The translations under genes were made by a program, and so were the position numbers. A DNA stretch of 64,000 nucleotides. It comes from Rugalucina vietnamica (Eukaryota; Mollusca; Bivalvia; Lucinida; Lucinidae). The DNA lies in NCBI GenBank assembly GCA_964017185.1, contig OZ024880.1, positions 46,637,071 through 46,701,070 of the forward strand. Direction: 5' to 3'. Below the pieces are notes generated by a model. The model was given only the letters and a program-made list of their open reading frames with translations. It was not told the DNA's origin and did no database searches. Positions 14,601-62,043 of this stretch are shown here, piece after piece. Each line of letters begins with the position of its first letter. Within the stretch, counting starts at the first letter, position 1.

Positions 14601-17600
14601 CATCAACAAGGTCAATGCAATGCAAGACACCAGTATTGGCTCTCAAGTTCACTTAGCTGAGGACATTGTTTGCCACAAGGCTATACAGTATAATACAGAG
14701 ACAGTAGAATAAAAATAGAACAAAATTTATTTTCAATCATGCATCTTCGCAAAGCAGCATATGTATCACTTGTAAAGTAAAGTTTAGCAATTGCTGAACC
14801 CCGTATAGCTGAAGTATAACCTGTAATAGTATGTTTTTAAGTCAGTGTAATCAGTTTCTTTGTTTCACTTAGAAAACCCTGAAAATAGTTACTTCACAGC
14901 TGATCAGTGCCTGTGTTTTCACTTCATAGAAACTGCAATCCCTTTGATTGATTATAATATCCAAAATTTCTCACTTCTATCTTCCTTCTGTGACTGTACA
15001 GTCTGGTTTGTGTCACACCTTGTCGGAAACACTAGAAGACACTATTAATTTTTCATATGTCATTTTAGAGATGACGATTACGTTAAGTGGATCTGTAAAT
15101 TTGAGTATTTTGGTATTCAGTCATTGAGCATGTAGACTTTCATTGTTGGATCAGCTGAGTTAGTAATATCCTCACTTGCTTTTGAAGTGGTAGAACCACG
15201 CTCTTCCCTCGTCAGTTTCCTTGGCTTAGACGGCCCCTCGGACTCTTTCTTTGATACAATAAACACATAGTCATCGGCGGTCTTGCACGGTCGTTGTTCG
15301 TTGTGAACTACATGGTGTCGTCTCTGCCAGAAACAGTAGATAACACCTGCAATGAGCAGCATTCCAAACACTACGCCCAAACCAGTGGCCACAGCAATTC
15401 CGACAGTTTTTGCTGTAGCCTTTCCATGATTGGTATTCATTTGACTGGCGTCTATCTTATCAAAACTGCTGTCAATTTCTTGATCAGAGTTCAGTGATTT
15501 TTCATCACTGAAATTAGTATTATCTCCCTTAGGTGTGGAAGTGGTGGTGGAGAACAGAGTTGTCCCATTGTGATTGTCATAGTCATAGTTATAGTCATAG
15601 TCCTCTGTATCATAAGTGCTAAAATCTGGGTCATAATAATTGTAGTTATAGTCATAGAATGGTGTCGTTCTTTTCTCAGTTGTTGTGTTACTTGGAGTTA
15701 CACTGGTAGACGATGATGGCTCGTAGTATGGTATTTCAGGATCTTTAAAGTCTGAAATTGAAACATCCAAGATTGGGGTGCCATGAAGACTCTGAGGGTA
15801 TAAACACAGAACATTGTGTGATTCCTGGAATTTCTCCGGTTCAAGCGCCATCCATTTTCGTAGCCACACTAAGTTGACATCACAGGAAAACTCATTGCCG
15901 GCAAGTTTGATTTCTTTGAGATTGGGTAAGAGCTGCTGAAATGATGATGTCAGTGTTCTTAGATTGTTATCCTTGAGGTTTATAGATGTTAGGTTTCCGA
16001 TACTTTTCAGAATCTGGTCATTTGTTAGCACATACTGCGCTAAAGTATGGCTTTCTTGTAGTGTCAATGTTTTAAGACTTGGTGTTGACAGAAACGGGTT
16101 GCCAGATATTTTCCCCACAGGAATTGTTACAAATGACAGCTCCAACTTTTCAAGATTTTCGAGGCCAAGAAAACAGTCTTGATAAATCATGGTCAGGTGA
16201 AGATAGTTCAGACTCATATATTCCAGGCCTCGGACAAACAAAAATGTGTTGTCATGAAATTTCTCGATGGGATTGCGCTCCAAATGTAGTTCCTGGATTG
16301 ACTGAAGGTTTGCAAAAGAAGCTGGCGTTATTTCTTGAATTTGATTGGAGCGTAGTGATAGAACACTTAGACTGGTACCATGCTGGAATGAGCTCATTGG
16401 AATGGTTCTTATTTTATTTTTATCTAGATATAAACTCCTGAGACTTTGTGGAAAGGGTCCAGGGATCATGTCAAGATCATTTTTAATCAGGAAAACATCT
16501 GTTAGAAATCCCATATGTGAAAATGTTCCTTTCTCAATGTAAGATAGATTGTTCTCTTCCAGAATTATAACACTAATGAATGCATACTCCTGCGTTTCTG
16601 ACTTGGTTATCCGTGTAATGTTGTTCTTACTTAGCTTTAAATACTTCACAGTCCATGGCATTCCCTTGGGAAACTCCCTCAGTCCACAGTTTTCAAGATC
16701 AAGGTAATGCACCTGTAAATTCACCTTGAAAAGGCTATCCACATTTTGTATAGGATTTGAACTCAGATCCACCATTGTTAGCTTCAGGTTTGTCTGAAAT
16801 GCTCCCGGTTCTATCTTGGTGACGTTGTTTCCAGCCAGTTTGAGATGTTGTAGTTTGTCCAGATCTCTGAAGGTTTTGTTGGTGATCTCTCTAAGATTGT
16901 TTTTCTCCAGAGCCAGCTTTTCCAAGTTGTTTAGATTTGAAAACAGTCCCTCAACATTTTGTAACTAATAAAGAGACAAGAAAAACAACAAAATTAAATG
17001 CAGGTATTTGATATGTAAAACCTTGTCCTTAGCTCATTTTTGTGAGTGTAGGACAAAACACCCCACGGACAAAACACCCCACATCCATTTTGGTATATGT
17101 GGACAAAAACCACCACATGTTTTTTTGAAGGCTGACAAAACACCCCATGCCCAATAGTATAACGTGGACAAAACACCCCATGCAGATTTTAAAATTAGGA
17201 CAAAACCCCCCTCATGTTTTTGCAGTGTAGATAAGCAGATAGAAGCAGACAGAAGCATCCTAATGCAAACAACGTGCATTTTCTGGTATTCTGGTATTAT
17301 CACTTCTTTTTCCTTCTTTCAATTCTATGTAGATGAATGGACATTTTCTTTGATTTCATTCCAATTATCACTTACTAAATCAAATGCATGTATTTTAATT
17401 TTGACAGTTTAAGAAATTATAATGTGCTAATTGAGTGCTATTAAGGTGATGATGATGATGATGATGATGATAACTTTATTTCCTCCAAAATTTGAAGATT
17501 ATCACACATATATAGACAATAAACATCAAAACAAGTTAAGCAAGGAACAAAACATGGTACATATATACAAAAAGGCAAACAATGAGCTCAAGTTCGTGAC

Positions 17601-20600
17601 AAAATTTTCACTTGAGTCGGACAGGTTCCCAACCATGCAAATGGCTGTTTCTATGACAGTTTATGAATGTTCAAGTAGATATCATCCAAATAATGCCCGC
17701 AAAAGTTTGCTACTTAGTAGGATGAGATCATAGTATACGTCCTCGGTTAGCGCGACAGTTACTATTGGTAGTCGTCCACCAAGGATTAATGTGATGAAGT
17801 CTTCGATTTCCAAGTTAGATAATAACAAATAGACATAAAATTTGGCCATGGTTTCATGTCCAAGTCATCAATTTTGTTATGTTATATGGGGAGCTAAAAC
17901 ATAAGACATTCTTATTGAAATCAAATTTGGTTATGGTTTCTTGTCCAAGTCATCAATTTTCAGTCATGTTATATGGTGAGCTATAAGACATTCATATTAT
18001 CTTTGATAAAGAAAAAGATAAGTTTTGGTTACTTTGGTTATTCCATCCATCAATTTTCATTCATGTCATATGGAGAACTAAGAAAAACATGAGGGGGGGT
18101 TTGTCCTAATTTTGAAATCCGCATGGGGTGTTTTGTCCACGTTATACTATTGGGTGTGGGGTGTTTTGTCAGCTTTCAAAAAAACGTGTGGTGGTTTTTG
18201 TCCATGTATAACAAAATGGACGTGGGGGGTTATGTCCGTGGGGTGTTTTGTCCGTATACCCATTTTTGTTTATCATTCTCAACTGAATTCAACTGAGCTT
18301 GAAATTTATCTTTCTATAAATCAGAAAACTAACAATTTGCTTATAGAAAACAAAGCTGCAGATCAGATGTGCAGTCACTGCACAGCTGTTCAGTGTCTTT
18401 GTTTAAGCTGCACAAAAAGTGCAATTCCTCTACGTCTTAAATCCAAAACTAAAAGCTTCTAGTCTGCTTCTGTGACTGTACAGGCCAGTTTGTGTCAGAC
18501 CTGGTCTGAAACCCAAAATTGTTGTGTTTTTATGCAATAGCTCAAATGTCATTTAGCAAGATGGTGACTTAAATCTGAAAAACCGTTGGTGTTAGTGTCT
18601 AGCTATTTAAAGTTTTATGATCACTTAGATTTTAATCCGAGTTGCAGTGAGCATGAAAAACATTAGACACCTGAAACAACCAGGCCTCGGGATTTCCTAC
18701 AAGGTCTGACACAAACCAGTCTGGGTTGTTACAGAGAAGCTTGAAGTTTTGGACTTAAGAAGATATACTGTGTGTAGTGAAAACAAAGGCGTTGATCAAC
18801 TGTGCAGTTCCTGCACATTTGTTTTCGCATATGCAAAAGTCCAGTTTTCTCATTATGGGGCTCAACTAATGAATAACAACTAAGGAGAGTTGAGATGGTT
18901 TACAGTTAAATTACTAGCTCAGTCCCATTTTATATTCTCAGCTTGTCCTTATTGACTAGGCAGACTGGTTTGTGCTGTTCCTGGCCTTGAGGTTATTAAA
19001 CTTTTTTTAAGCTCAGGTCAGCTGAGACATAAATTTATCCTGCTCATAAATGTTAAAAATGCCAACAATTGTTGGCATTTTAACATTTATAGCAGGATAA
19101 ATAACAGGCTTTGGAGTTCTAGACCTTCAATTTCAATATACAGTCCAACCTGTCTTAAGCAAGCGGCCAAGGGAAACACTAAAATTGCTTGCTTAAGACA
19201 GGTACTTGCTTAATAGAGGTTATGTTCTTTAAATACTAGGGTGGGCGTCTTAATAAAAGTATGTTAGCTAGAAATTAAAAATCTTGCAGAGTTTAAATAT
19301 CAATGTCAAAATATTTCTTTTTTGTGAAATTGATGAAATGAGTGGCTGCTTAAGGCCGAAATTGGGACAGAAACTAGTGGCCTCTGGCCACATAAGAGGT
19401 GCTTGCTTAATAGAGGTTCATTTACATGTAAAATCAATTGGGGGGAAATTAAAGTGCTTGCATAAGACAGGTGCTTGCTTAATACAGGGCTTGCTTAAGA
19501 CAGGTTGGACTGTATTTGGGCTATTTCGGTATTTATGAGTAGTTAAAATTTTATGTTTAGTTGAGCATGAAAAAAGTTTTATAACCTTGGGACCTAGTCC
19601 TGAGGCTATTTCTTCATGCTCGACTCAGCTGAGCATAAAATTTAAACTGCTTACAAATGCTGAAATAACCCAGGTAAATTGTAATTTCAGGTTTAGATCA
19701 TCAAAGCCTGTAGTTTATTCTGCTAACAAATCTGAGCAGGATAAATTTAGTCTCAGCTGAGCATGAAAATAGTTTAATTATCTCGGGGCCAGGTTGTAAA
19801 CCCCCCACCCCCAAAGCCTCCACAGACACTCACCTTATTATCATAGAGATACAGAAGTTGTAGAGACGTCAGTTGACTGAATATACCCAGCGGCAAATCT
19901 TGGATTTCATTCTTTGCCAAGTCTAGTTTCATTAAACTTCCCAGATCATTAAAAGCACCTTCTTCAATATCGGTTATTCTGTTGTTAGCTAGTCTGAGAA
20001 CCTTCAGTGCTCCTAAATGGCTGAACGTTGTTTTGCGTATCTGGGAAATATGATTATTTTCCAAGTTTAGTAGCACAGTATCGGATGGAATATCCATGGG
20101 CATTGAGTATAATTTACCGCCAGCGCAGTGAACTTCTTTGTTGATGCAAGTACATAGTTCAGGACAGCCGTAGGATAGCTTTACAGTCACTGCTACATAG
20201 AATATTAGGCACAACATTATAAAGTTTTCATCCATTATGAGAATTGAAGGTCAGTAATCCTTGTTGATTTATTGTTTTGTAAACTTTAAAACTTGGAAAT
20301 ATTGAAGCGTACCTCTTATCAAACTTCTGTTAAATGGGCCTGGCAATATGAAAATTTACCATGTTCCATTTGAGCCATGTCACAATTAAACCTTTTTGTA
20401 TATTCAGAAATTATCATAGCGTATACCAGCTGAGCATTATAATGCAGATTGTTAAGGTCTTTGGGACATAGATGGTACAGCTTTGGGACATAGATGGTAC
20501 AGTATCTCATCTTCTTAAATCAAAACTTTCATGCCTCAAGCCATTGTGGTTGTACTATCAGGTTTGTGTCGGCCATGTGAGACTAGCCCTATTTGGAAAC

Positions 20601-42210: not shown

Positions 42211-44139
42211 TATGTATGCATCTGTTATGTCACTTGAAACTTTGTCCTGTGAGTTGTTTTTTTGAGGTTGGAGAGACTATATAACCGTATATAAAAGCAC
42301 CATGTTGATAAAAGCCCTATGGCTGTACTGGTTTCACCCTGTCCTGTGGTTTTGTTGTTCAGGTTTAATTTCCTCTCAATATCTTTCAAATTAGTTGAAA
42401 TAAAGTAAATCTTTCCATGTTTTCATGACCTTTATTTGAGGAATTGTCTACTTCTGAAATATTTGTACGCAAGTTCTTGAATTCGTGAATGAACTGGTCA
42501 TGGGATACTTTTTTGTGATGTGCTATTGTCCCTAAGGTTATAAAAAAATTTTAGGCTTAGCTAGGCATGAAATTTAGCAAGATAAATGACTCGCTTATGC
42601 TAAGTATGAATTTCAACCAATTTTGGTTATTTCAGCATTTATAAGCAATTTAAATATTACGCTATTTTTGTTGAGAACAAAAAGATTATAATCTCACGTC
42701 ATGGTGATCATTGTACTTAATGTTGTTTTTGTGTTGAATAATGTCTTGATTATGTTATATTGTTTTAAACAAATATGACAATATGTTAAAAAAGATGAAA
42801 GAAACGAAAAGTTATCTTCAGCTATTTCTATTTTATCTTCCAGTTTTGGGGGATCCTCAATTTGGTCGCTTCTTTTCTTTATGGGAACACCTCCATACCG
42901 ATTTGTAGCTTGTATACATAAACTGTGCAAAATAAAATTAGCAATTTTTGATGTTACATATATTTTTGATCACCTTAGAGCAATTTTGGACATTTCGTTA
43001 ATTTAAATGAAAAGAACAGTGTCTCAGGCACATGCTACGATGAATTTAAAAACGCCATACTTTAAAGAGGCTTCTGGAACAACCAGGAAATAAGGAAGGG
43101 TGTGAATGCAAAATTCTCTACCATAGAACACAATGCAAACAGCTGATTTTTTTTTAACTCTATTAGGCCCATCCTTTTCACCCCTTCTTTAGAAACGTTG
43201 TTGATTATGTGGCAAGTGAGATTGGGCTTTTTCGGTACAAACTTTACCTGCCAAAAAAACAATGTCAATGCAACGTCAAGTGGTCAAAATTGCCTTAATT
43301 TCAGGTTACTTGGTTTCCACTGATTTTCATAGAAACAAAACGAGACAAACAAAGCACATTGTAGCCAATACCGTGGTCATTAACACTTGAGAGTTTCACA
43401 GCTATAACGCATCATGCTAGTGAGATAACGCTGACGTTAAACTCATTATTTAACCTCACGTTAATTATGAAGCCAAGATAGGGAATTTTGCAAACTCTAT
43501 TTTAACATATCGGTATGCATCAGACATTTAAACTCATTGCCGATTTTTGGGAAATTCCAATTAGAAACTTAACTGTAATGCGATAATGTAGGAGCAAAAG
43601 AAAAAAAATTGTTGAATTAAAAAACTTACGATCTTTATTTCTCGGCGATAAAATTGTGTTTCCAAACATTTCAAATATTTTTCTTTGTTTTCATGACTAA
43701 ACAGTTGCTTAAGCATGATTTTGGTTTCCCACTTTAAGGAGACCTGCAAGTTTTGATCATGTGTCTTAAATCATAACGTCACATCAGTATCACGGTAAGG
43801 TTTGATTTTTTTTTAAATGTTTCGCTTGTAAGTTCTTGTCGAAAGGTTACCACTTACGCCCATATTCCAAAATATGAATTTTATTCATTATGTGCAGAGA
43901 CATGCAAATGTTACGAAAATTGCTAAATTTAATTTGCATAGTATATAAATGGCATTGTGAGAAACAGTTGGTATATGCAAAAACAGTCAAAGATAAGCTG
44001 CCCATAATCTGTACATCTGGTCAGCCCTAGATTTTTGTACAAAAAAAAAGAGTACAATTTCATGATAGTTCAAAGGTAGTACATTACCTACACCATCTAA
44101 ATTTTAAGTATTGAATACTTTCTTTTCTTTTATGTTCTC
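42211..44139. other. AT-rich region, no gene recognised
   Basis: A CTCAGCTGAG-MITE remnant is at about 42531-42690 (AAGGTTATAAAAAAATTTTA, TTAGCTAGGCATGAAATTTA). AATAAAG at about 42411 is a possible polyadenylation signal. Open frames are short and AT-biased; none looks coding. Confidence 0.4.
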
Positions 44140-47015
44140 TTAAGGCTACATAATGAACATGTTGACAGGTCTAATACCATACATGTTCTCTTGCTACATG
44201 ACAAACATATGTTCACAGATTTAATTACATACATGTCCTCAATCATGCTACATAATAAACATGTTCAAAGATCTAATTACATACATGTCCTCATGCTACA
44301 TGATGAACATGTTCACAGATCTAATTACATACATGTCCTCGTGCTACATAATGAACATGTTCACAGATCTAATTACATACATGTCCTCATGCTACATGAT
44401 GAACATGTTCACAGATCTAATTACATACATGTCCTCGTGCTACATAATAAACATGTTCAAAGATCTAATTACATACATGTCCTTATGCTACATAACAAAC
44501 ATGTTCACAGATCTTATTATGTACATGCTCTTTAGGCAACATAATAAACATGTTCACAGATCCAATCATATACATGTCATCATGCTACATAATAAACATG
44601 TTCACAGATATAATTACATACATGTCCTCAGATTACATAACAAACATGTTCAAACAATCTTATTACATGCATGTTCTTAGGCTAAATAACAGACATGTTC
44701 AAAAGACCTAATTACATACATGTTCATAAGCTATATAACAAAGATGTTCACAGATATGGTTACATACATGTTCTTAGGCTACATAATAAACACATTCAAA
44801 GATCTAATTTTCAGAAATGTCCTCGGGCGACATAAACATCTTCACAGCTCTATTTACATACATGTCCTCAGGCTACATGATTAACATGTTCAGAGATCTA
44901 ATTCTCAACAATGTCCTCCATAATATAATAAACATAATAAACATGTTCACAGATATAATAACATACATTGTTTTAAGGCTACATAACAGTAATACAGTTA
45001 CATGTCTACTTAAATTTATGCTCTCAGACTACATAACAAGATTACGGATCCAATTACATACATATTCTTAGGCTACGTAACAAGAATGTTTACAGATCTA
45101 ATAACATACATGGCATCAGACTACGTAAACACTTGTTCACTTGTCTAATACATTCATGTTCTCAAGTTACCTAACAAGTATGTTCATATATTGACTGCAT
45201 TCATGTTCTCATGTTACATTACAAACCCGTTCACAGATCTACTACATACATGTCCACAGGTTACATAACAAACATGTTCACAGCTCCAATACATACATAT
45301 TCTCAAGTTTCATAACAAACATGCTCACAGATCTAATACATACATAGTCTCAAGTTGCATAATAAACATGTTCACATATCTAATACATACATTTTATGAG
45401 GCTACATGACAAACGTGTGCACAGATTTAATACACATTCTCAAGTTACATAAAAACATGTTCACATATCTAATACATATTCTCAAGTTTCATAACAAACA
45501 TGTTCACAGATCTAATACATACATATTCTCAGGCTACATAACAAACATGTTCACAGATCTAATTTTCAAAAATGTCCTCAGGCTACATAACAAACGTGTT
45601 CACAGATATAATAACATACATTGTTATATACATTATAAACATGTTCACAGATCAAATTCTCAGGTTACATAGCATACATACATGTTGTCAGGCTACATTA
45701 CAAACATATTCTAAGATTTTAATATATGCATATTCTCAGACTACATAACAAACATGTTCACATATCTAATACATACATGTAACAGACATGCTCTAAGATT
45801 TTAATGCATATATGTTCTGAGGCTACATAACAAACATGTTCGCATATCTAATACATACATGTTACAAACATGTTCTAAAATATTAATACATGTTGTCAGG
45901 TAAGATTTAAATGCATACATACAAATTTCTGGCTACATAACAAACATGTTCGTATATCAAATACATACACGTTACAAAAATGTTCTAAGATTTAAATACA
46001 TATACATTGTATGTTCTCGGGCTACACAACAAATATGTCATATATCTATTACGTGAGACAAGCCATGTTCTGCTTGCGGATGTGTCAGGTGGTTTTTCCC
46101 CCGGTACTCCGGTTTTCGCCCCACCTACCGATTGATTTATCTCGATATGAGTAAAAAAGCTTGAAAGGAACGTAAAACTGAATCAAAAAGGAAAAAAAAA
46201 ATATATATATATCTATTACATACGTGTAACAAACATGTTCTAACGTTTTAATGCATACAAGTTCTCTGGCTTTATGACAAACGTAACTAACATGTTCACA
46301 TACCAAATACATATCAAATACAAACCTGTCCAAAGATTTTAATGCATAAATATTATCAGGCTATATAACAAACGATATATATATCTATTACATACGTGTA
46401 ACAAACATGTTCTAACGTTTTAATGCATACAAGTTCTCTGGCTTTATGACAAACGTAACTAACATGTTCACATACCAAATACATATCAAATACAAACCTG
46501 TCCAAAGATTTTAATGCATAAATATTATCAGGCTATATAACAAACGACTTCACATATCTATTACGTACATGTAACAAACATGTTCTAAGATTTTGATGCA
46601 TACATGTTCTCCAGCTTTATAACAAACATAACTAACATATTCACAAACCAAATACATACATGTAACGAACATGTTCTGTGTTTAAATACATACATATTCT
46701 CAGGCTAAATAACAAACCTGTCATAAGATTTTTATGCATAAATATTCACAGGCTACACAACAAGCATGTTCACATATCCAATACATACAAGAAACAAACA
46801 TGTTCTAAGATTATAATACATATTCTCAGGCTACATAACAAACATATTCGCATATCTATTACACACATGTAACAAACATGTTCTAAGATTTTAATACATA
46901 CATGTTCTCAGACCACATAACAAACATGTTCAAAGATTTTAATAAATACATATTCTCAGGCTACATAGCAAACATGTTCACATATCTCATACATGCATGT
47001 GACAAACCTGTTCTA
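44140..47015. repeat. 48-bp minisatellite array, about 2.9 kb
   Basis: Unit: TACATACATGTCCTCATGCT, ACATAATGAACATGTTCACA, GATCTAAT, mostly 48 bp. The first 10-12 units are well conserved, later ones diverge and vary in length. Because 48 is a multiple of 3, all frames repeat a 16-residue peptide and stay open in places, which mimics a gene. Interrupted at 46050-46200 by a SINE fragment. A 173-bp block at 46201-46373 is repeated directly at 46374-46546 with no difference that I could see. Confidence 0.9.
46050..46200 (+). mobile_element. SINE 3' fragment
   Basis: Matches, in inverse orientation, the tail half of the SINE at 24978-25225 (GAGACAAGCCATGTTCTGC, TGTCAGGTGGTTTTT, GGAACGTAAAACTGAATCAA) and ends in an A-rich tail. 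Lacks the tRNA-like head. Confidence 0.65.
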
Positions 47016-47019
47016 AGTA

Positions 47020-47050
<31 letters not shown>

Positions 47051-53087: not shown

Positions 53088-53620
53088 ACAATTTTAATTT
53101 CATAATTTCCGGCACATATTAACAAAGGTGTCATTAGGAGCACTGAGTATTACAGAGCATGTGCCAGTTAACACCTTCCGTGATCATTCACACCTCATTA
53201 ATCACGTGGGCATATAACCTAGGTGCTTATCTATTGCTGTCTGGAATAATGTGACTACAATAGCAAATGTAACATTGTTTATTGTGTCGTATATATAGTA
53301 ACAAGTAAATATGAATGTACACTCATCTTTAATAACAGGTATAAATGCATACTTTGTCATTTTACCATTTATATAATATTCTTAAGAAACCTGCTAAATA
53401 AATCATGAAACTGCACCATCTAATTTTTAATTTCATAATCTCCGGCTCATATTAACAAAGGTGTCATTAGGAGCACTGAGTATTACAGGACACGTGCCAG
53501 TTAACACCTTCCGTGATCATTCACACCTTAATTAATGACGTGTGTCGGTCAACAGTAGCAAATGATACATTGTTTATTGTGTCGTATAAATACCCGCATG
53601 CTACTGTATGAATGTGCTTG
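53088..53620 (+). repeat. two direct copies of about 210 bp, 330 bp apart
   Basis: TTTAATTTCATAATTTCCGG ... CATTAGGAGCACTGAGTATT ... CCAGTTAACACCTTCCGTGA ... TTGTTTATTGTGTCGTATA occurs at 53092-53297 and again at 53424-53594 (with a deletion). Located just upstream of the composite transposon protein; both copies end in a GTCGTATATATA / GTCGTATAAATA TATA-like motif. They might be promoter or end repeats of that element; inference only. Confidence 0.7.
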
Positions 53621-53822: not shown

Positions 53823-53952
53823 TTCTGTTGATTTAAGATAATTTATCGAGCTCCAACGGGTCATTGAATTACAGACAGTACATCTCAAATATAAAGCTTT
53901 GATCTTTATGATTCAATGCTCTAAGTTAATGTTCTCCCGTTCTGAATTTTAG

Positions 53953-54889
53953 GGCCAACGTGATCTTTTCGTCGATATTACCTCGGGCTTCAAGCGAGTT
54001 CGAGAAGAAGCTGAAAGATGAGACTCTGAATGATATCAATTCGACGTCAAGAGTGGTAAACTACGCGTTGTTTAGGGTTTCCAAATTAGAGTGTTATCCG
54101 GACATTCGGTTTCTCGATCATGACCAAGATTTTTGGACTGAAGGGAGAATACAACGTCGTATGTTGAGCAGAGATGGTCTTCATCTGAGTTTTAAGGGCA
54201 CAGAAACTTTGGTAAGACGAATCGAGTTGGAAATTCAGAGACTGATGCCGACGACAATGCCGACGACTGTCCGCCCTGCGCCAGTAGTGAAGGTGATTCC
54301 GACGACTGTCCGCCCTGCGCCAGTAGTGAAGGTGATTCCGACGACTGTCCGTCCTGCGCCAGTAGTGAAGGTGATTCCGACGACTGTCCGTCCTGCGCCA
54401 GTAGTGAAGGTGATTCCGACGACTGTCCGCCCTGCGCAAGTAGTGAAGGTGATCCCGACGACTGTCCCGACGACTAAGACGACGACTGTCCGCCCTGCGC
54501 CGGTGCTGAGAGTGAAGACGTTCAGACGCAAATCAATCCCAGTAGAAGCGTTGACTCCATGGTGGGAATCGGCAACTTCAAACAACAGGTTTCAGATGCT
54601 ATCGATCAACGACGATGAAGATGAAGATGTTGACGACGATGACTACGAATACGAGTCCATGGAACCCGTTAGTGTACAATCGAGAACTCTGCTGACAGGA
54701 GGTGGTGGTAGCAACACCAGTGATAGTGAGGATGGCCTAGAAGACTTTACAGACGTTATATATACAACATGTGATGTGAAACTTAAACATTCTGAAGCTG
54801 CGGAAATGTTGGACAATCCTGATTCAAATAAACTTTCAACGTTCCCGCCGTATCAACCAAAGGGAGGCAGTGTGTTGTCTATTCAGTGA
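53953..54889 (+). CDS. SGNH-hydrolase-like tail plus proline repeats (first part of composite transposon protein)
   Basis: An open frame entered through a splice-acceptor-like gaattttag at 53952; it has no suitable ATG, so it is probably an internal exon. It reads ANVIFSSILPR, then RFLDHDQDFW and MLSRDGLHLSFKGTETL. DGLHLS..G is block V of SGNH/GDSL hydrolases, with Asp and His of the catalytic site; the N-terminal half with the Ser block is missing from the region I can read. Then follow five 13-residue repeats PTTVRPAPVVKVI and a strongly acidic stretch (DDEDEDVDDDDYEYE). It ends YQPKGGSVLSIQ and stops at TGA 54887-54889, inside the start of the next frame. Not an ordinary host gene; most likely part of the transposon coding region. 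Confidence 0.65.
54250..54467 (+). repeat. 39-bp coding minisatellite, five units
   Basis: CCGACGACTGTCCGCCCTGC plus GCCAGTAGTGAAGGTGATT repeats five times in frame and encodes PTTVRPAPVVKVI. The opposite strand is also open here, an artefact of the repeat. Confidence 0.92.
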
Positions 54890-57800
54890 TAGACAACAAA
54901 GTCAAAATAAGGACGACTGGCGCGCAGATGGGTATACCTGGAGAAACTATGGGAAAAGCAAAGTGACTAACGGTGACAAAATTATTGAAAAGTCTTATTT
55001 TAGAATTAAAAACGGAAAAGATGAAAGTGACAAATTCCAGAGAGTTATGTTAAGATACCACGGTACGGATTATAATCATGTTACAATCATTCAGTACTTA
55101 GGTGATGAAAGTGAATATAAAGGTGCATCTCATGGAAACAGAAAAAATGGATTCAGACCACATAAGAGGACATTACCCTCCGTAATTAACAAAATAAAAA
55201 TCAGTGGGGGTGAAAATCCAAAATTAGTTAAGGATAAACTTGATTCAGAAAGTACAGTTCCCTTAAAAATGACAGGGATTTCTAGTGTTAGGAATGTTAA
55301 ACAGGTGGCAAACGCCCAATATAATGTACGAAAAGACAAGAGATTTGGTCATGATTCTTTATATAATTTGCATGAACTTGTATATCACATTGATTCGTAT
55401 ATTCATGAAATAAAAACCGTTCCAGATCTTCAAGTTATTATAGGCTATACTGATATGTTTCAAGAATTTGACAGACTCTTACAACTTAAAACAAGCGATC
55501 CCATTCCTTTGTTTTATGATACAACATTTTGTTTAGGTGATTTTTATGTATCTACTTTAGCCTTTCAACATATAATGTTCGAGGAAAATCCGGTAATTCC
55601 TTTGGCTTTTATGGTCCATGAGCGCAAATTTCAAAAATGTCACGAGCAGTTTTTCGAAGTAGTTAAAGATAAAATCCCGAGATTAAGTCGTAAATCTTTT
55701 CCAATTGTAACAGACAGAGAATCAGGTATTGTCAATGCTATAGAAAAAGTTTTTCCGAACGCGCAATTATTGATTTGTTGGAATCATATATTAAGAGATT
55801 TAAAATTTTGGCTTTCTAAACATGGGGCAACTCCGACAGATATGCAATTTTATGATAGTCAAGTGAAAACCCTGCTGCAGTGCGAATCACGTGAAAAATT
55901 TGATTCTCTAGTCGAAGAACTTATGTTACCATGGAGCGAACCAATGATAGATTATTTCAACGCAAATCTTCGCGATACTATAACCAAATACGCAGGACGC
56001 TGGATCCTTGAAGAAATTGATTTATACAATCCGTATTCTGGAATTACTAATAATTGCTCAGAAAGCATAAACGCGAAATTAAAAAGATTGACGGAATGGA
56101 AAGAGAAAGAAGTTGATAACATTGTTCTGTATCTATATTATATGCAAAGTAATGATCTTGCTGAATTAATGAAAAGCTTCTGTGGTGTGGGAGAGATGAC
56201 ACTCCTGAAAAAATTTAGGTATGCATTGAAAGATCCGGAAACTGCCATTTTACCGAAACGCGTTTGTCATCCTGATAAAATGATTGAAATGATTAAGGGT
56301 GAACTTGAGGTACTCGATAATGAACGCAGAAACCAAGATTTGAATACGGATACCGATAAGGAGATAGATCATGGTCAGTTTAGATCGACAAGTAGCCTCG
56401 AAGAACCCGCGCTTACAAAAAAATCTTCCGTTAGTAAGCAAAAATTAAGCCAAAAATCTCTCGCCCAAGAAACGTTAAGAGACAATGGAATAAGCTTAGT
56501 TCCCGCAATGAAATGTTTTGTTGTGAAAGGTAGCCGCGATAATAAATATGCTGTGACTCTGTTCCCAAAAGAAACGTGTAATTGCCCGTCTACTAGTCGA
56601 TGTCGTCATATTCTGTCGGCCATGATGGCAATAGGTATGGAACCAGGTGAAGACAAGAAGGCAATAAATCTAACACAGCTGCGTAACAATAGCCGAACTA
56701 GAAAAGATAAAAAAGCTGGGACAAAAAGAGGTCGTAAAGGGGATGTAGATGAAACTAGTGTTATCGCGGCACCAGATTCAATTTTGATTAATAGTACATT
56801 TCATGATGATGACTTAACATCCGAAACCGATAATAAAGAACCATTCATTTTATCCCACTCGACTCCGAAAACAGTAAAACCAGAACTTAATTCGAATTTA
56901 TGTGATACTCCTATTCAGCCGACAAAAACTCCTAGAACACCAAAGGTAGTCATCGTGTCTCCGCGGCGCACCCCAAAATCTATTTTGAAAAAATCTAAGA
57001 AAAATTTGTTTGATACCTCCGAGGCTGATGTCCCTGAACCCAAAAGACCGAAACTTGAAATGCCTGTGCCTGAATGTTCCGATTCAACAGATGACCTGGT
57101 AACTATGAACAATAATTCTAGAAGCGATGTAGGCGTTGACGAACTTCCTGATGTAACAGAACAAATAGAAACACAACCAAATTCTTTATGGCTTCCCAAT
57201 TTAGGCTTAACAATTTCAGACAAAGAAGCAATTTTAAATAATGAAAAATTAAATTCACAAATAATCGAAGCAGTTAATATAATAGCAAGAAATCAATTTC
57301 CATCAATATCTGGCTTACAACTTCCGGAAAAAGTTCCAAAATACATTACAAAAGAAAGTCGCTGGCATGTACAGCAACAGTCAGTAATGAACCCGCTTTC
57401 AAATGATAAATCACGTGCATGTCAAATTCACCATACTGGTAAGGATCACTGGGTCGTCACGTTCAGGGATGAAACCGACAGCATATTCATGCTCGATAGT
57501 TTAGGGTTCGACAGGCCATCGCGCTCCATAATGACGCCGAGTTTATCAATACAGTTAGGCATAATGTACGGGAAAAATACCGATCAGGACCTCGAAGTCA
57601 TTATTAATGATACTCAAAAACAAACAAATGGTGTTGATTGTGGAGTTTTTGCAATAGCGCATCTTACAGAGTTTTGTATTAAGGGTACACTGAACCCCAC
57701 AGTTACATTCGATACCAAATCTATGCGCAAGCATTTACAGTCTTGCTTGGAATCTGGTATTCTCTCCAGCTTCCCAACTTTACCAAGGAGGCCAAACAGA

Positions 57801-57989
57801 AATCGTTACACGGCAAAGCATAAATCCGTTTCAATAAAATTGCATTGTAAATGCCGTCTTCCAGAATGCTTAGGAGATATGATTAAGTGTAATGCATGCA
57901 AAATAAGTTTTCATAAACACTGTGTAGATAAACATATAGATATTGCTTGCCCCAAGAACAAATTTCTATGCGAAATATGTTTAAAATAG
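54870..57989 (+). CDS. MULE-type transposase with SWIM, Ulp1-like protease and PHD finger
   Basis: An open frame of 1039 codons without an ATG start, overlapping the previous frame by 20 bases in +1 register. In order (numbering from 54870): WRKY-like segment 16-83 (DGYTWRNYGK) lacking zinc ligands; MULE transposase with Asp217 (LFYDTTF), Asp282 (IVTDRESG), the Mutator C-x2-H signature Cys303-His306 (ICWNHILRD) and Glu398 (TNNCSESINAKLK), spaced 65 and 116 as in Mutator; SWIM finger Cys570-x-Cys572-x5-Cys578-x-His580; basic SP/TP-rich linker; Ulp1/C48 protease with His860 (KDHW), Asp876 (MLDSLG), Gln918 and Cys924 (NGVDCGVF); PHD finger 993-1037. All catalytic residues are present, so this copy may be active apart from its start. 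The role is DNA cut-and-paste transposition, with the protease and PHD parts of unknown purpose. Confidence 0.88.
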   Translation: MCCLFSDRQQSQNKDDWRADGYTWRNYGKSKVTNGDKIIEKSYFRIKNGKDESDKFQRVMLRYHGTDYNHVTIIQYLGDESEYKGASHGNRKNGFRPHKRTLPSVINKIKISGGENPKLVKDKLDSESTVPLKMTGISSVRNVKQVANAQYNVRKDKRFGHDSLYNLHELVYHIDSYIHEIKTVPDLQVIIGYTDMFQEFDRLLQLKTSDPIPLFYDTTFCLGDFYVSTLAFQHIMFEENPVIPLAFMVHERKFQKCHEQFFEVVKDKIPRLSRKSFPIVTDRESGIVNAIEKVFPNAQLLICWNHILRDLKFWLSKHGATPTDMQFYDSQVKTLLQCESREKFDSLVEELMLPWSEPMIDYFNANLRDTITKYAGRWILEEIDLYNPYSGITNNCSESINAKLKRLTEWKEKEVDNIVLYLYYMQSNDLAELMKSFCGVGEMTLLKKFRYALKDPETAILPKRVCHPDKMIEMIKGELEVLDNERRNQDLNTDTDKEIDHGQFRSTSSLEEPALTKKSSVSKQKLSQKSLAQETLRDNGISLVPAMKCFVVKGSRDNKYAVTLFPKETCNCPSTSRCRHILSAMMAIGMEPGEDKKAINLTQLRNNSRTRKDKKAGTKRGRKGDVDETSVIAAPDSILINSTFHDDDLTSETDNKEPFILSHSTPKTVKPELNSNLCDTPIQPTKTPRTPKVVIVSPRRTPKSILKKSKKNLFDTSEADVPEPKRPKLEMPVPECSDSTDDLVTMNNNSRSDVGVDELPDVTEQIETQPNSLWLPNLGLTISDKEAILNNEKLNSQIIEAVNIIARNQFPSISGLQLPEKVPKYITKESRWHVQQQSVMNPLSNDKSRACQIHHTGKDHWVVTFRDETDSIFMLDSLGFDRPSRSIMTPSLSIQLGIMYGKNTDQDLEVIINDTQKQTNGVDCGVFAIAHLTEFCIKGTLNPTVTFDTKSMRKHLQSCLESGILSSFPTLPRRPNRNRYTAKHKSVSIKLHCKCRLPECLGDMIKCNACKISFHKHCVDKHIDIACPKNKFLCEICLK

Positions 57990-58991: not shown

Positions 58992-61900
58992 TCAGCAGGT
59001 TGCTGAATTCAGCAGAAAATTCAGCGTTTTAGTCAGTCCCATGAGACCTCGCCACTTTGATCGCTCCTGTGCAGTCTGTCCCCAGAACCCCATTGGTATT
59101 TCGAAATCCTTCAGAGAGGCTTTGAGGGTGTCTTTGTAGCGTTTCTTCTGGCCACCTTGAGAGCGCTTTCCCTCCTGTAGTTCTCCATAGAAAACTTTCT
59201 TTGGAAGTCGCGCATCAGGCATTCTTATAACATGGCCAGTCCATCTTAGCTGTGCTAGCTTTAAGACTGTATGCATGCTTTGCATCCCTGCTTTCGTCAG
59301 GACCTCTGTGTCTGGAATCTTGTCCTGCCACTTGATTTTTAACAACTTTTTGGTATACTGTCCAGGTCTCACATGCATACAAGAGGGTTGGCAGTACCAC
59401 AGCCTTGTAGACTTTCAGCTTGGTGTCAAGCTTGATTCCATTTCGCTCCCAGACATTTGCACGGAGTCGTCCGAATGCCACACTAGCCTTTGCAATTCTG
59501 GCAGTGATCTCATCATCAATATGCAGTGCTCTGGAGAGAGTGCTTCCCAGGTAGGTGAACTTGTCAACAACTTTCAGTTTTTGCCCATTCACAGTGATGG
59601 TTGGTTCATTATATGGCTTTCCGGGCGCTGGTTGGTGTACAACCTCTGTCTTTTTGTGCTGATTGTGAGATCATAGTTATCACATGACTGTGAGACTTGA
59701 TCCATGGCTCTTTGCATTTTTGCCTCTGTGCTGGCATTCTTATCCATATCATCTGCATAGAGGAGCTCATCTAGCACATCAGTCTGGACCTTAGTTTTGG
59801 CTTGCAACCTTCTGAGGTTGAATATGTTGCCATCAAAACGGTACCTGATTGGAAAACCAGTGTCACTGTCCTGAAAAGCATCCATAAGCATGGCAGAAAA
59901 CATCATGCTGAACAGTGTTGGTGCCAGAACACAGCCTTGTTTGACCCCATTTGTTACTTCAAATGGTTCAGAGAACTCTCCATCATTTTGCACACGTGCC
60001 TGCATGCCATCATGAAACTGCCGCACCATTGCTATGAATCTGGGTGGACAGCCAAACTTGGCCATGATTTTCCAGAGTCCATCACGACTAACAGTGTCAA
60101 AAGCTTTGGTGAGGTCAACAAACGTCATGTATAGATCTACATTCTGTTCTTGGCATTTCTCCTGAAGCTGTCTTGCTGTGAAGATCATGTCTATTGTCCC
60201 TCTGTCTTTTCTATATCCACATTGACTTTCTGGGATAAGTCCCGTCTGATCAAGATGAACATTCAGACGATTCAACAGAATTTTTGCAAGTATCTTCCCA
60301 GCAATTGATAGGAGGGAGATGCCTCTGTGATTGTCACAGACTTGAGGATTTCCTTTCCGCTTGTATAGGTGGATTATGGATGCATCCTTAAATTCTTGTG
60401 GGATAGCCTCCTTTCTCCACATACAGTGAAACAACTCTGTCAGTTTCTCTGCCATGGGTAGCCCCCCAGCCTTGTAAACTTCGGCAGGAATTGCATCTGC
60501 ACCTGGGGCTTTGCCAGATGATAGTTGTTGAACTGCTTTTCTTGTTTCCGTAACGGTAGGAAATTCATCTAACAGAACATTGCACTCTATCTGTGGAAGT
60601 CTGTCGATTGCATCCTCATTGATGCTTGATGGTCGATTAAGCACACTATTGAAGTGTTCTGCCCACCTTTCCAAGATAGCTTTTTTATCTGTGAGAAGAG
60701 TGTTACCATCTGCACTGAGCAATGTGGTGGCTCCAGAACTCTTTGGACCATAAATGGTTTTCAGTGCATCATGAAATTTCTTCATGTCCTTTCTATCCGC
60801 AAAAGACTGAATTTCTTCTGTTTTCTTCCTCAGCCAGGAATCTTGCATGTCCCTAAGCTTGGTCTGGACTGTCTTACAAAAGTTGCTGTAGGCTGCTTTC
60901 TTTGATACTGAGCTAGTATCATCTTGATGTGCCTTGTGCAATCGGTGCTTTTCTTCAAGAAGCCTCTGAATTTCGTCATCATTCTCATCAAACCAGTCTT
61001 GATGTTTGCGAGATGGATGGCCTAGAGTGCTTGCAGCTGAAGATAGAACTGTTTTATGGAAAACTGTCCAGTTTTCTTTGGGGTCCTCTGAACTGAGATT
61101 CATTGCATCCAGTTGGTTGCAAATGTCTGTTAAGAAATCTTGTCTCATGCTGTCTTTATTCAGCTTTGAGACATCCAGTCTCTTAGGAGCTTTCTTGCCT
61201 TGAGGTCGCCTCGCAGGCTGTATTCTTAGGTTGAGTTTGCTGACAACCAGTCTATGATCTGTCCAGCAGTCTGCACCACACATAGTCTTTGTCACTTTAA
61301 CATCCTGCCTGTCTGTTCTCCGCACTATGACATAGTCTATGAGATGCCAGTGTTTGGAACGGGGATGCATCCAGGATGTTTTGTTCCTATTAGGTAGACG
61401 GAAGACTGTGTTGGTGATTAGAAGGTCATGTTCAGCACACTTCCTGAGAAGCAAGAGACCATTGCTGTTGCACTTTCCAACCCCTTCTGGACCTATAACT
61501 CCTTCCCAGGTCTGGTGGTCTGTACCCACTCTGGCATTAAAGTCGCCAAGAAGGATAAGCTTGTCTGTGCGGGGTGTTGCAGAAATAACATTGTCTAGGT
61601 CATCATAGAACTTGTCCTTGACCTCATCTGGATTGGTCATTGTGGGTGCATAAGCACTGACAATAGTTGCATGTTTATTGCCTGACAGAGGAAGTCTCAG
61701 TGTCATTAGACGGTCATTAATGCCTTTTGGCAATCCTGACAGCTTACCAACAAGTTCTGTTTTGATGGCAAAGCCAACTCCTGCTTCACGCCTCTCTTCA
61801 CTTTTGCGTCCACTCCAGAAGAAGGTGTATCCAGCACCAACTTCTTTGATCTCCCCAACATCTGCGAACCGAGTCTCACTCAATGCAGCTATCTGTATAT

Positions 61901-62043
61901 CATACCTCCCAAGTTCTCTGCCCACAAGGGCCGTTCTACGCTGTGGTCTATCTGACCCAGCATTGTCCATTAAAGTACGCACATTCCATGCGCCAATCCG
62001 TAAGGGGATTACTCTAGCTTTTTTTCTTTGTATTTCGACCGCT
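58992..62043 (-). mobile_element. RTE-like LINE with two frame disruptions
   Basis: One long minus-strand coding region. The N-terminal part is an APE-type endonuclease (ALSETRF, IVSAYAPT, LLGDFNARVG, WHLIDYVIV, TDHRLVVSKL). A long linker leads to the reverse transcriptase (GKAPGADAIPAEV, YKRKGNPQVCDNHRGISLLS, FVDLTKAFDTVSRDGL, GVKQGCVLAPTLFS, LLYADDM). The frame opens by 62042 without ATG, is 797 codons from 61982, and ends at 59589. The C-terminal part continues in a second frame (59592-59350 region, [24 protein letters not shown]) and then a third (ending 58992, [12 protein letters not shown]). First break: one base apparently missing in an A-run at 59651-59655. Second: near 59350, with apparent loss of about 15 codons. 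The similarity is to proteins often annotated craniofacial development protein 2-like, which are RTE-derived. Confidence 0.85.

Follow-up and report, generated by a model that had tools for sequence, protein, structure and literature searches.

A probable frame-shifted Mutator-like transposon in Rugalucina vietnamica carrying CG-1, Ulp1-like and PHD domains, with a candidate self-processing site

In Hydra and lancelet, Mutator transposons encode Ulp1 (Bao et al. 2010, PMC2836005), and the legend of Fig. 1e in that paper names Ulp1 and PHD as domains of the transposases of Ginger1 and Mutator. We analysed a locus at positions 53953-57989, on the plus strand of a 64,000-nucleotide stretch of the bivalve Rugalucina vietnamica (contig OZ024880.1; hereafter the window). 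On balance, we read it as a bivalve-type Mutator-like DNA transposon, present here in a frame-shifted copy, whose product may be processed by its own Ulp1-type protease; that the locus belongs to a Mutator-like element (MULE) is very probable. The first-pass annotation of this DNA had cited plants for Mutator-like elements with captured Ulp1 and had not recognised the addition of a PHD finger and an upstream hydrolase in an animal element; novelty of MULE plus Ulp1 in animals is not supported, given the published Hydra and lancelet Mutators (PMC2836005). Because that paper reports animal Mutator Ulp1 and aligns it with PHD in the parts consulted, the combination of MULE, Ulp1 and PHD is probably not new either.

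Compared by description only, the Hydra and lancelet elements share the MULE core and Ulp1 with our locus, whereas a CG-1 domain, an SGNH domain and a triple glycine go unmentioned in the portions of PMC2836005 consulted. Ginger1-9_HM (Table 1 of the same paper) likewise ends in Ulp1 and PHD, but its core is a Gypsy-integrase-like DDE and not a MULE. The consulted parts of a MULE survey (PMC6446971) list two molluscan groups, MULE-Mollusca with inverted repeats given as "None and amino acid sequences" and MULE-Cg with inverted repeats of 48 and 296 bp; by their description, neither has a zinc finger or other motif listed. The domains named in that survey are OTU, SET, FAR1, FLYWCH, SWIM and CCHC, with PHD for Rehavkus; its main text mentions neither Ulp1 nor WRKY, and no CG-1 or SGNH appears in the portions covered. 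As far as the consulted portions describe them, the SGNH-encoding frames of CR1/L2/RTEX and bdelloid retroelements (PMC3905857, PMC5408684) likewise place SGNH beside a mobility enzyme, in a gag-like position in the non-LTR (non-long-terminal-repeat) elements; our locus, in contrast, has a DNA transposase as its core and shows the SGNH tail alone. Neither CG-1 in a transposase nor an SGNH-MULE fusion was reported in the titles and abstracts searched, a scope that leaves out most subscription papers and Repbase Reports, and a conserved L-x-G-G-G between SGNH and transposase was likewise not found in print in the literature searched.

Two overlapping frames are open at the locus, frame 1 at 53930-54889 and frame 2 at 54780-57989, with residue 1 of frame 2 at 54891 and its stop codon at 57987-57989. 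The parts follow in the order SGNH-hydrolase-like tail, proline repeat linker, MULE DDE core, SWIM finger, Ulp1/SENP-like protease and PHD finger. The first-pass annotation had proposed that MULE, SWIM, Ulp1 and PHD form one transposon-type protein behind an SGNH end and linker; profiles, Pfam and relatives all agree with this. It had also described a MULE triad spaced by 65 and 116 residues with a C-x2-H signature and a complete H-D-Q-C protease set, and all of these residues are present. The MULE/Transposase_mut core (55398-56216) carries D210 (55518), D275 (55713), C-x2-H (55776-55787) and E391 (56061), and its DDE residues are almost invariant across the family profile. The SWIM region (56451-56690) has the ligands C563, C565, C571 and H573, each found in 50 of 50 sequences, while Pfam SWIM reaches E<=0.01 in only 9 of 55 members. 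It is followed by a disordered linker (56718-57176; predicted local distance difference test score <50 over residues 620-762) with a TPKSILKK motif; TPKSILK also occurs in the relatives P0001, P0005, P0008, P0011 and P0014.

The Ulp1/SENP-like cysteine protease (Peptidase C48; 57189-57776) has its H853, D869, Q911 and C917, and its predicted fold matches that family. Fold searches were made with predicted models only, and families missing from the match lists were not counted as evidence. The PHD finger, which runs with the stop codon to the end of the locus (57834-57989), has all C4-H-C3 zinc ligands, and H3K4me3 readers, PHF2 for one, are among the solved chains closest to it. For the PHD of P0006, sequence neighbours among solved chains were Spp1, PHF2, EBS, CXXC1, DIDO1 and BPTF, and the PHD fold search returned H3K4me3 complexes of PHF2, PPS and DIDO. 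A tryptophan two residues before the histidine ligand, presumably the H3K4me3 cage residue, is present in 13 of the 19 family PHDs; the window, P0001, P0002 and P0004 have serine there. Reading of H3K4me3 by the family's PHD is put at about an even chance, and at less for the window copy. The PHD and the SUMO protease may together steer insertion or relieve silencing.

We then examined whether this order is conserved. The first homologue search returned 54 proteins at E<=0.001, the named ones from Ruditapes, Mytilus, Pinctada and Hydra. Iterated profiles on 59 sequences, including the window, matched CG-1 in 43, MULE in 56, SWIM in 51, C48 in 22 and PHD in 19, and C48 was present in all 19 PHD-bearing sequences. 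Among the 51 SWIM-bearing open reading frames (ORFs), 21 extend at least 330 residues beyond SWIM; the profiles found C48 in 20 of these and PHD in 18, P0053 has Ulp1 by Pfam where the profile missed it, and P0044, P0052 and P0053 either lack PHD or have one that went unrecognised. The other 30 comprise P0018, with Ulp1 and PHD, and 29 that end too early to judge, at an intron, a contig end, a lesion or a real absence. Since several homologues carry the same domain order in one chain, a chance junction does not explain it. Ulp1 and PHD in separate products, which the first-pass annotation had named as the finding that would speak against it, were not seen among the 21 long ORFs, a count at ORF level that the 29 of 51 short ORFs cannot inform. 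A family-alignment scan of viral and genome contigs matched 17 and 10 stretches, none confirmed as a relative. One full-length relative, P0005, is recorded as a Ulp1 family isopeptidase of a Candidatus Thiodiazotropha metagenome-assembled genome and is probably contamination from the clam host.

Two further modules lie 3' of SWIM in some relatives: P0033 has a macro domain at residues 535-652 (Pfam 1.4e-33), ahead of its Ulp1 and PHD, and P0037 has one at residues 609-726 (9.3e-31), their clusters holding 29 and 9 member sequences. To judge from these matches, the lineage can add a putative ADP-ribose-binding module into the same chain, so that chromatin modules (PHD, macro domain, SUMO-type protease) would accumulate on an animal transposase.

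In relatives that align across it, the transposase N-terminus is a CG-1 domain, the DNA-binding domain of CAMTA transcription factors, which the first-pass annotation had overlooked. In the window it is split into a first part in frame 1 (54779-54886), aligned with P0001, whose Pfam CG-1 match spans the region, and a remainder in frame 2 (residues 1-85; 54891-55145; Pfam WRKY 6.8e-4, CG-1 0.98; fold matches). The frame offset (54860-54893) falls inside the domain, and because relatives such as P0001 read through without a break, the window copy is damaged or mis-assembled near 54,870. CG-1 stands above the Pfam cut-off in P0006, P0014, P0018, P0047 and P0058 and below it (23.5 bits) in P0001 (18.6 bits) and P0012 (17.7 bits); in P0001, WRKY scores nearly the same as CG-1. 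WRKY, covering the domain only partly, was dropped as the label, since the relatives' CG-1 matches span profile positions 4-114/116 and five exceed the cut-off. We hold the CG-1 identity with good confidence. The predicted fold is SSR4/NAC/WRKY-like, and one match, 4m8b ("Fungal Protein"), we take to be a WOPR domain. In CAMTA proteins, CG-1 is followed by TIG, ankyrin and IQ parts; the element has CG-1 in common with them but no TIG, ankyrin or IQ part in Pfam scans of the window and relatives. Through the CG-1 match, a transcription-factor domain of wide occurrence becomes linked to a mobile element; its predicted fold links it to the WRKY/NAC group as well. P0058 has two CG-1 stretches in tandem and no MULE match, and could be a domesticated relative.

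Ahead of CG-1, frame 1 encodes what appears to be the C-terminal part of an SGNH-hydrolase-like domain (53953-54259; PF19040 E 0.023, below cut-off). In SGNH hydrolases, block I holds the nucleophile serine, and the D-x2-H of block V is present here within RDGLHLSFKGT (RDGLHLSF, frame-1 residues 74-81). The relatives' tail pieces match PF13472, PF19040 and PF04311, always below cut-off (E 0.02-0.2) and at the C-terminus of the profile, and four tail pieces each have a family of SGNH type as their best Pfam match; PF04311 (DUF459) is one that we take to be of this type. The motif occurs in 11 sequences (window frame 1, P0001, P0006, P0007, P0008, P0009, P0011, P0014, P0016, P0055 and P0056) and block V is invariant across seven aligned tails, P0001 standing outside that alignment. 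In P0047, 427 residues precede the CG-1 profile start and look SGNH-like by eye; Pfam gives no SGNH match there. A proline/threonine-rich linker (54260-54491) follows the tail, built on a 39-nt tandem repeat (54260-54467, 5.3 copies, 97%) that translates as proline/threonine repeats. Tail, linker and CG-1 lie in a single open frame in P0001, P0006, P0007, P0008, P0009, P0011, P0014 and P0016 (mutual identity 38-72%). We consider it likely that the SGNH domain is real and part of the product.

Between linker and CG-1, the window carries LTGGGG (54692-54709), a candidate cleavage site for the element's protease suggested by conservation in relatives and by the published adenain consensus (PMC7464072). 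A GGG occurs in 13 of 60 sequences (47,212 residues), as a single run in each: the 11 SGNH-tailed ones, P0047, and P0010, which is too short for a tail to show. It lies upstream of CG-1 sequence in 12 of the 13, P0055 stopping before CG-1. LxGGG is seen in 12 of the 13, P0009 having QSGGG, so that every SGNH-tailed sequence has GGG and 10 of 11 have it as LxGGG; [MIL]xGGG expected from composition alone is 0.5. Of 43 CG-1-matching sequences, 13 have at least 80 residues upstream, and 11 of these have GGG; the other two, P0052 and P0058, have neither GGG nor SGNH tail. In a 10-row alignment with 178 linker columns (77 filled in at least 8 rows), at least 7 rows are identical only at L227, G229, G230 and G231 and at two columns near CG-1. 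P0011 is misaligned at this point, its own LCGGG being kept at residue 40. Between 28 and 228 residues separate the tail from the GGG.

According to the portions consulted, adenain is a viral maturation protease structurally related to Ulp1, which cuts (M/I/L)XGX-G and (M/I/L)XGG-X (PMC7464072). LxGGG satisfies both forms, a consensus fit made from sequence alone; precursor cutting is shown for adenain and proposed here. LxGGG as a site for the element's own protease is put forward only tentatively. The model that we favour would work as follows. The N-terminal CG-1 domain (WRKY/NAC-like fold), and probably SWIM too, would bind the element ends, the MULE DDE core would cut and join DNA, the PHD would tether or recruit the transposase to chromatin, and the Ulp1/SENP-type protease would strip SUMO or ubiquitin-like tags alongside. 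In the SGNH-bearing lineage, the transposase would start out as part of a precursor with an SGNH-type esterase in front of it, and the element's protease would cut LxGG-G, freeing the SGNH part from the CG-1-MULE transposase. If true, self-processing would give the Mutator Ulp1 domain a concrete substrate; its role in Mutator transposons is only suggested in the literature found, and LxGGG beside the captured domain offers a precise and cheap test.

WRKY, GCM1 and FLYWCH reportedly belong to a single superfamily connected with MULEs (Babu et al. 2006), and a shared origin with the MULE DNA-binding domain is said to hold for FHY3/FAR1 and FLYWCH. The joint reading, in which a polyprotein self-processed at LxGG-G also has a CG-1 domain of the WRKY/GCM1 superfamily sharing its origin with the MULE DNA-binding domain, is unlikely as a whole.

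Several results weigh against the favoured model. P0012 and P0018 have Ulp1 with neither SGNH tail nor GGG, in sequences that begin 42 and 68 residues before the CG-1 profile does, so precursor cutting is unlikely to be the ancestral job of Ulp1. The looser motif also matches elsewhere, as ISGGE at window frame 2 residue 104 and as IKGGL in P0003. A third homologue search, intended as an out-of-sample check of LxGGG with the prediction set beforehand, brought up two new proteins, both lacking an SGNH tail, so that support for LxGGG is confined to the set that suggested it. In the tree, 7 of 8 GGG rows fall in one 13-row clade (100/100), as kin and not as independent cases; the ORFs of its other six rows begin only beyond the site. 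By naive count, the GGG label needs 7 changes, as few as in 173 of 500 shuffles, and is not clustered, because shortened ORFs were scored as lacking GGG. As for the domains, the tail motif is DGLHLS in 9 of 11 sequences; the other two, P0001 and P0056, have DGQGLS and so have lost the catalytic histidine. A pattern scan for the block I serine in plus-strand frames up to 54000 gave 11 scattered matches, none SGNH-like by eye, and tblastn with the N-termini of P0047, P0014, P0008 and P0001 gave a best E of 1.6 upstream of the exon. On the window piece alone, where the domain is split, Pfam WRKY outscores CG-1, and the window PHD lacks the cage tryptophan expected of an H3K4me3 reader. The best candidate for terminal inverted repeats, in limited flanks, was one 16-bp pair with one mismatch (51110/58330) and no target-site duplication; no match in a blastn of wider reach was longer than 16 bp (best E 0.67).

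The strongest rival, which we rate a little short of even, is an ordinary MULE in which the sole task of Ulp1 is to strip SUMO or ubiquitin off the host's chromatin or repair proteins, with the GGG as a flexible hinge and the SGNH part as a captured passenger. The tail-less Ulp1 relatives suit this account; a passive hinge, however, needs neither a leucine two positions before three glycines nor a fixed spot in linkers of such varied length that are otherwise dissimilar.

Improbable, in our judgement, is a host gene domesticated from such a MULE for chromatin or transcription control. The unconvincing inverted repeats and the long, conserved ORFs would fit it, and domesticated FHY3-type MULE derivatives are reported in animals including molluscs in the portions of PMC10027918 consulted. 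The near-copies argue the other way, as they do against a single-copy syntenic host gene. P0056 is P0001 minus its middle (97.5% and 99.6% identity on either side) and is listed with P0014 as a near-copy with a large internal deletion; P0057 is a further copy (94.5% over 274 residues), and P0004 matches the window at 98.9% identity over 637 residues. P0056, P0057 and P0004 look like dead, internally deleted transposon copies, although they may instead be alleles. The lesions of P0004, whose ORF begins only late within the MULE core, and of the window copy, with its CG-1 frame offset, are different, and the near-invariance of the DDE residues likewise speaks against a host gene. Very improbable is an SGNH piece that stems from a separate mobile element, inserted upstream and unrelated to the MULE: SGNH esterases are known in several retroelements (PMC3905857, PMC5408684, in the parts consulted) and a complete SGNH domain was not found here, but eight mutually diverged relatives hold tail, linker and CG-1 in one frame.

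We also inspected the surroundings of the locus. A putative 3' splice site, TTTTAG (53947-53952), would start an exon at 53953; P0014 has the identical residues F-R-A at this point, with similarity continuing downstream, which fits an intron before 53953. Further upstream, a repeat search found a duplicated block (53092-53592, plus strand; 53092-53195 with 53425-53528 at 95%, 53257-53297 with 53552-53592 at 90%) that ends in TATA-like boxes and is a possible promoter region. Within the window, Rfam gave nothing at gathering score, and NCBIfam gave weak IS256-, ISH6- and IS1249-type matches far under cut-off and two obscure ones. Just 3' of the element, the minus strand carries a non-LTR retrotransposon (59215-62042) that has an endonuclease and a reverse transcriptase (RVT_1 3.1e-28). 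Long degenerate tandem arrays occupy 44143-47033, with a strong GC (guanine-cytosine) skew of -0.30 in 44001-46000. Exons of a leucine-rich-repeat protein, on the minus strand at 15117-16964 and 19774-20250, are probably part of a host membrane receptor gene.

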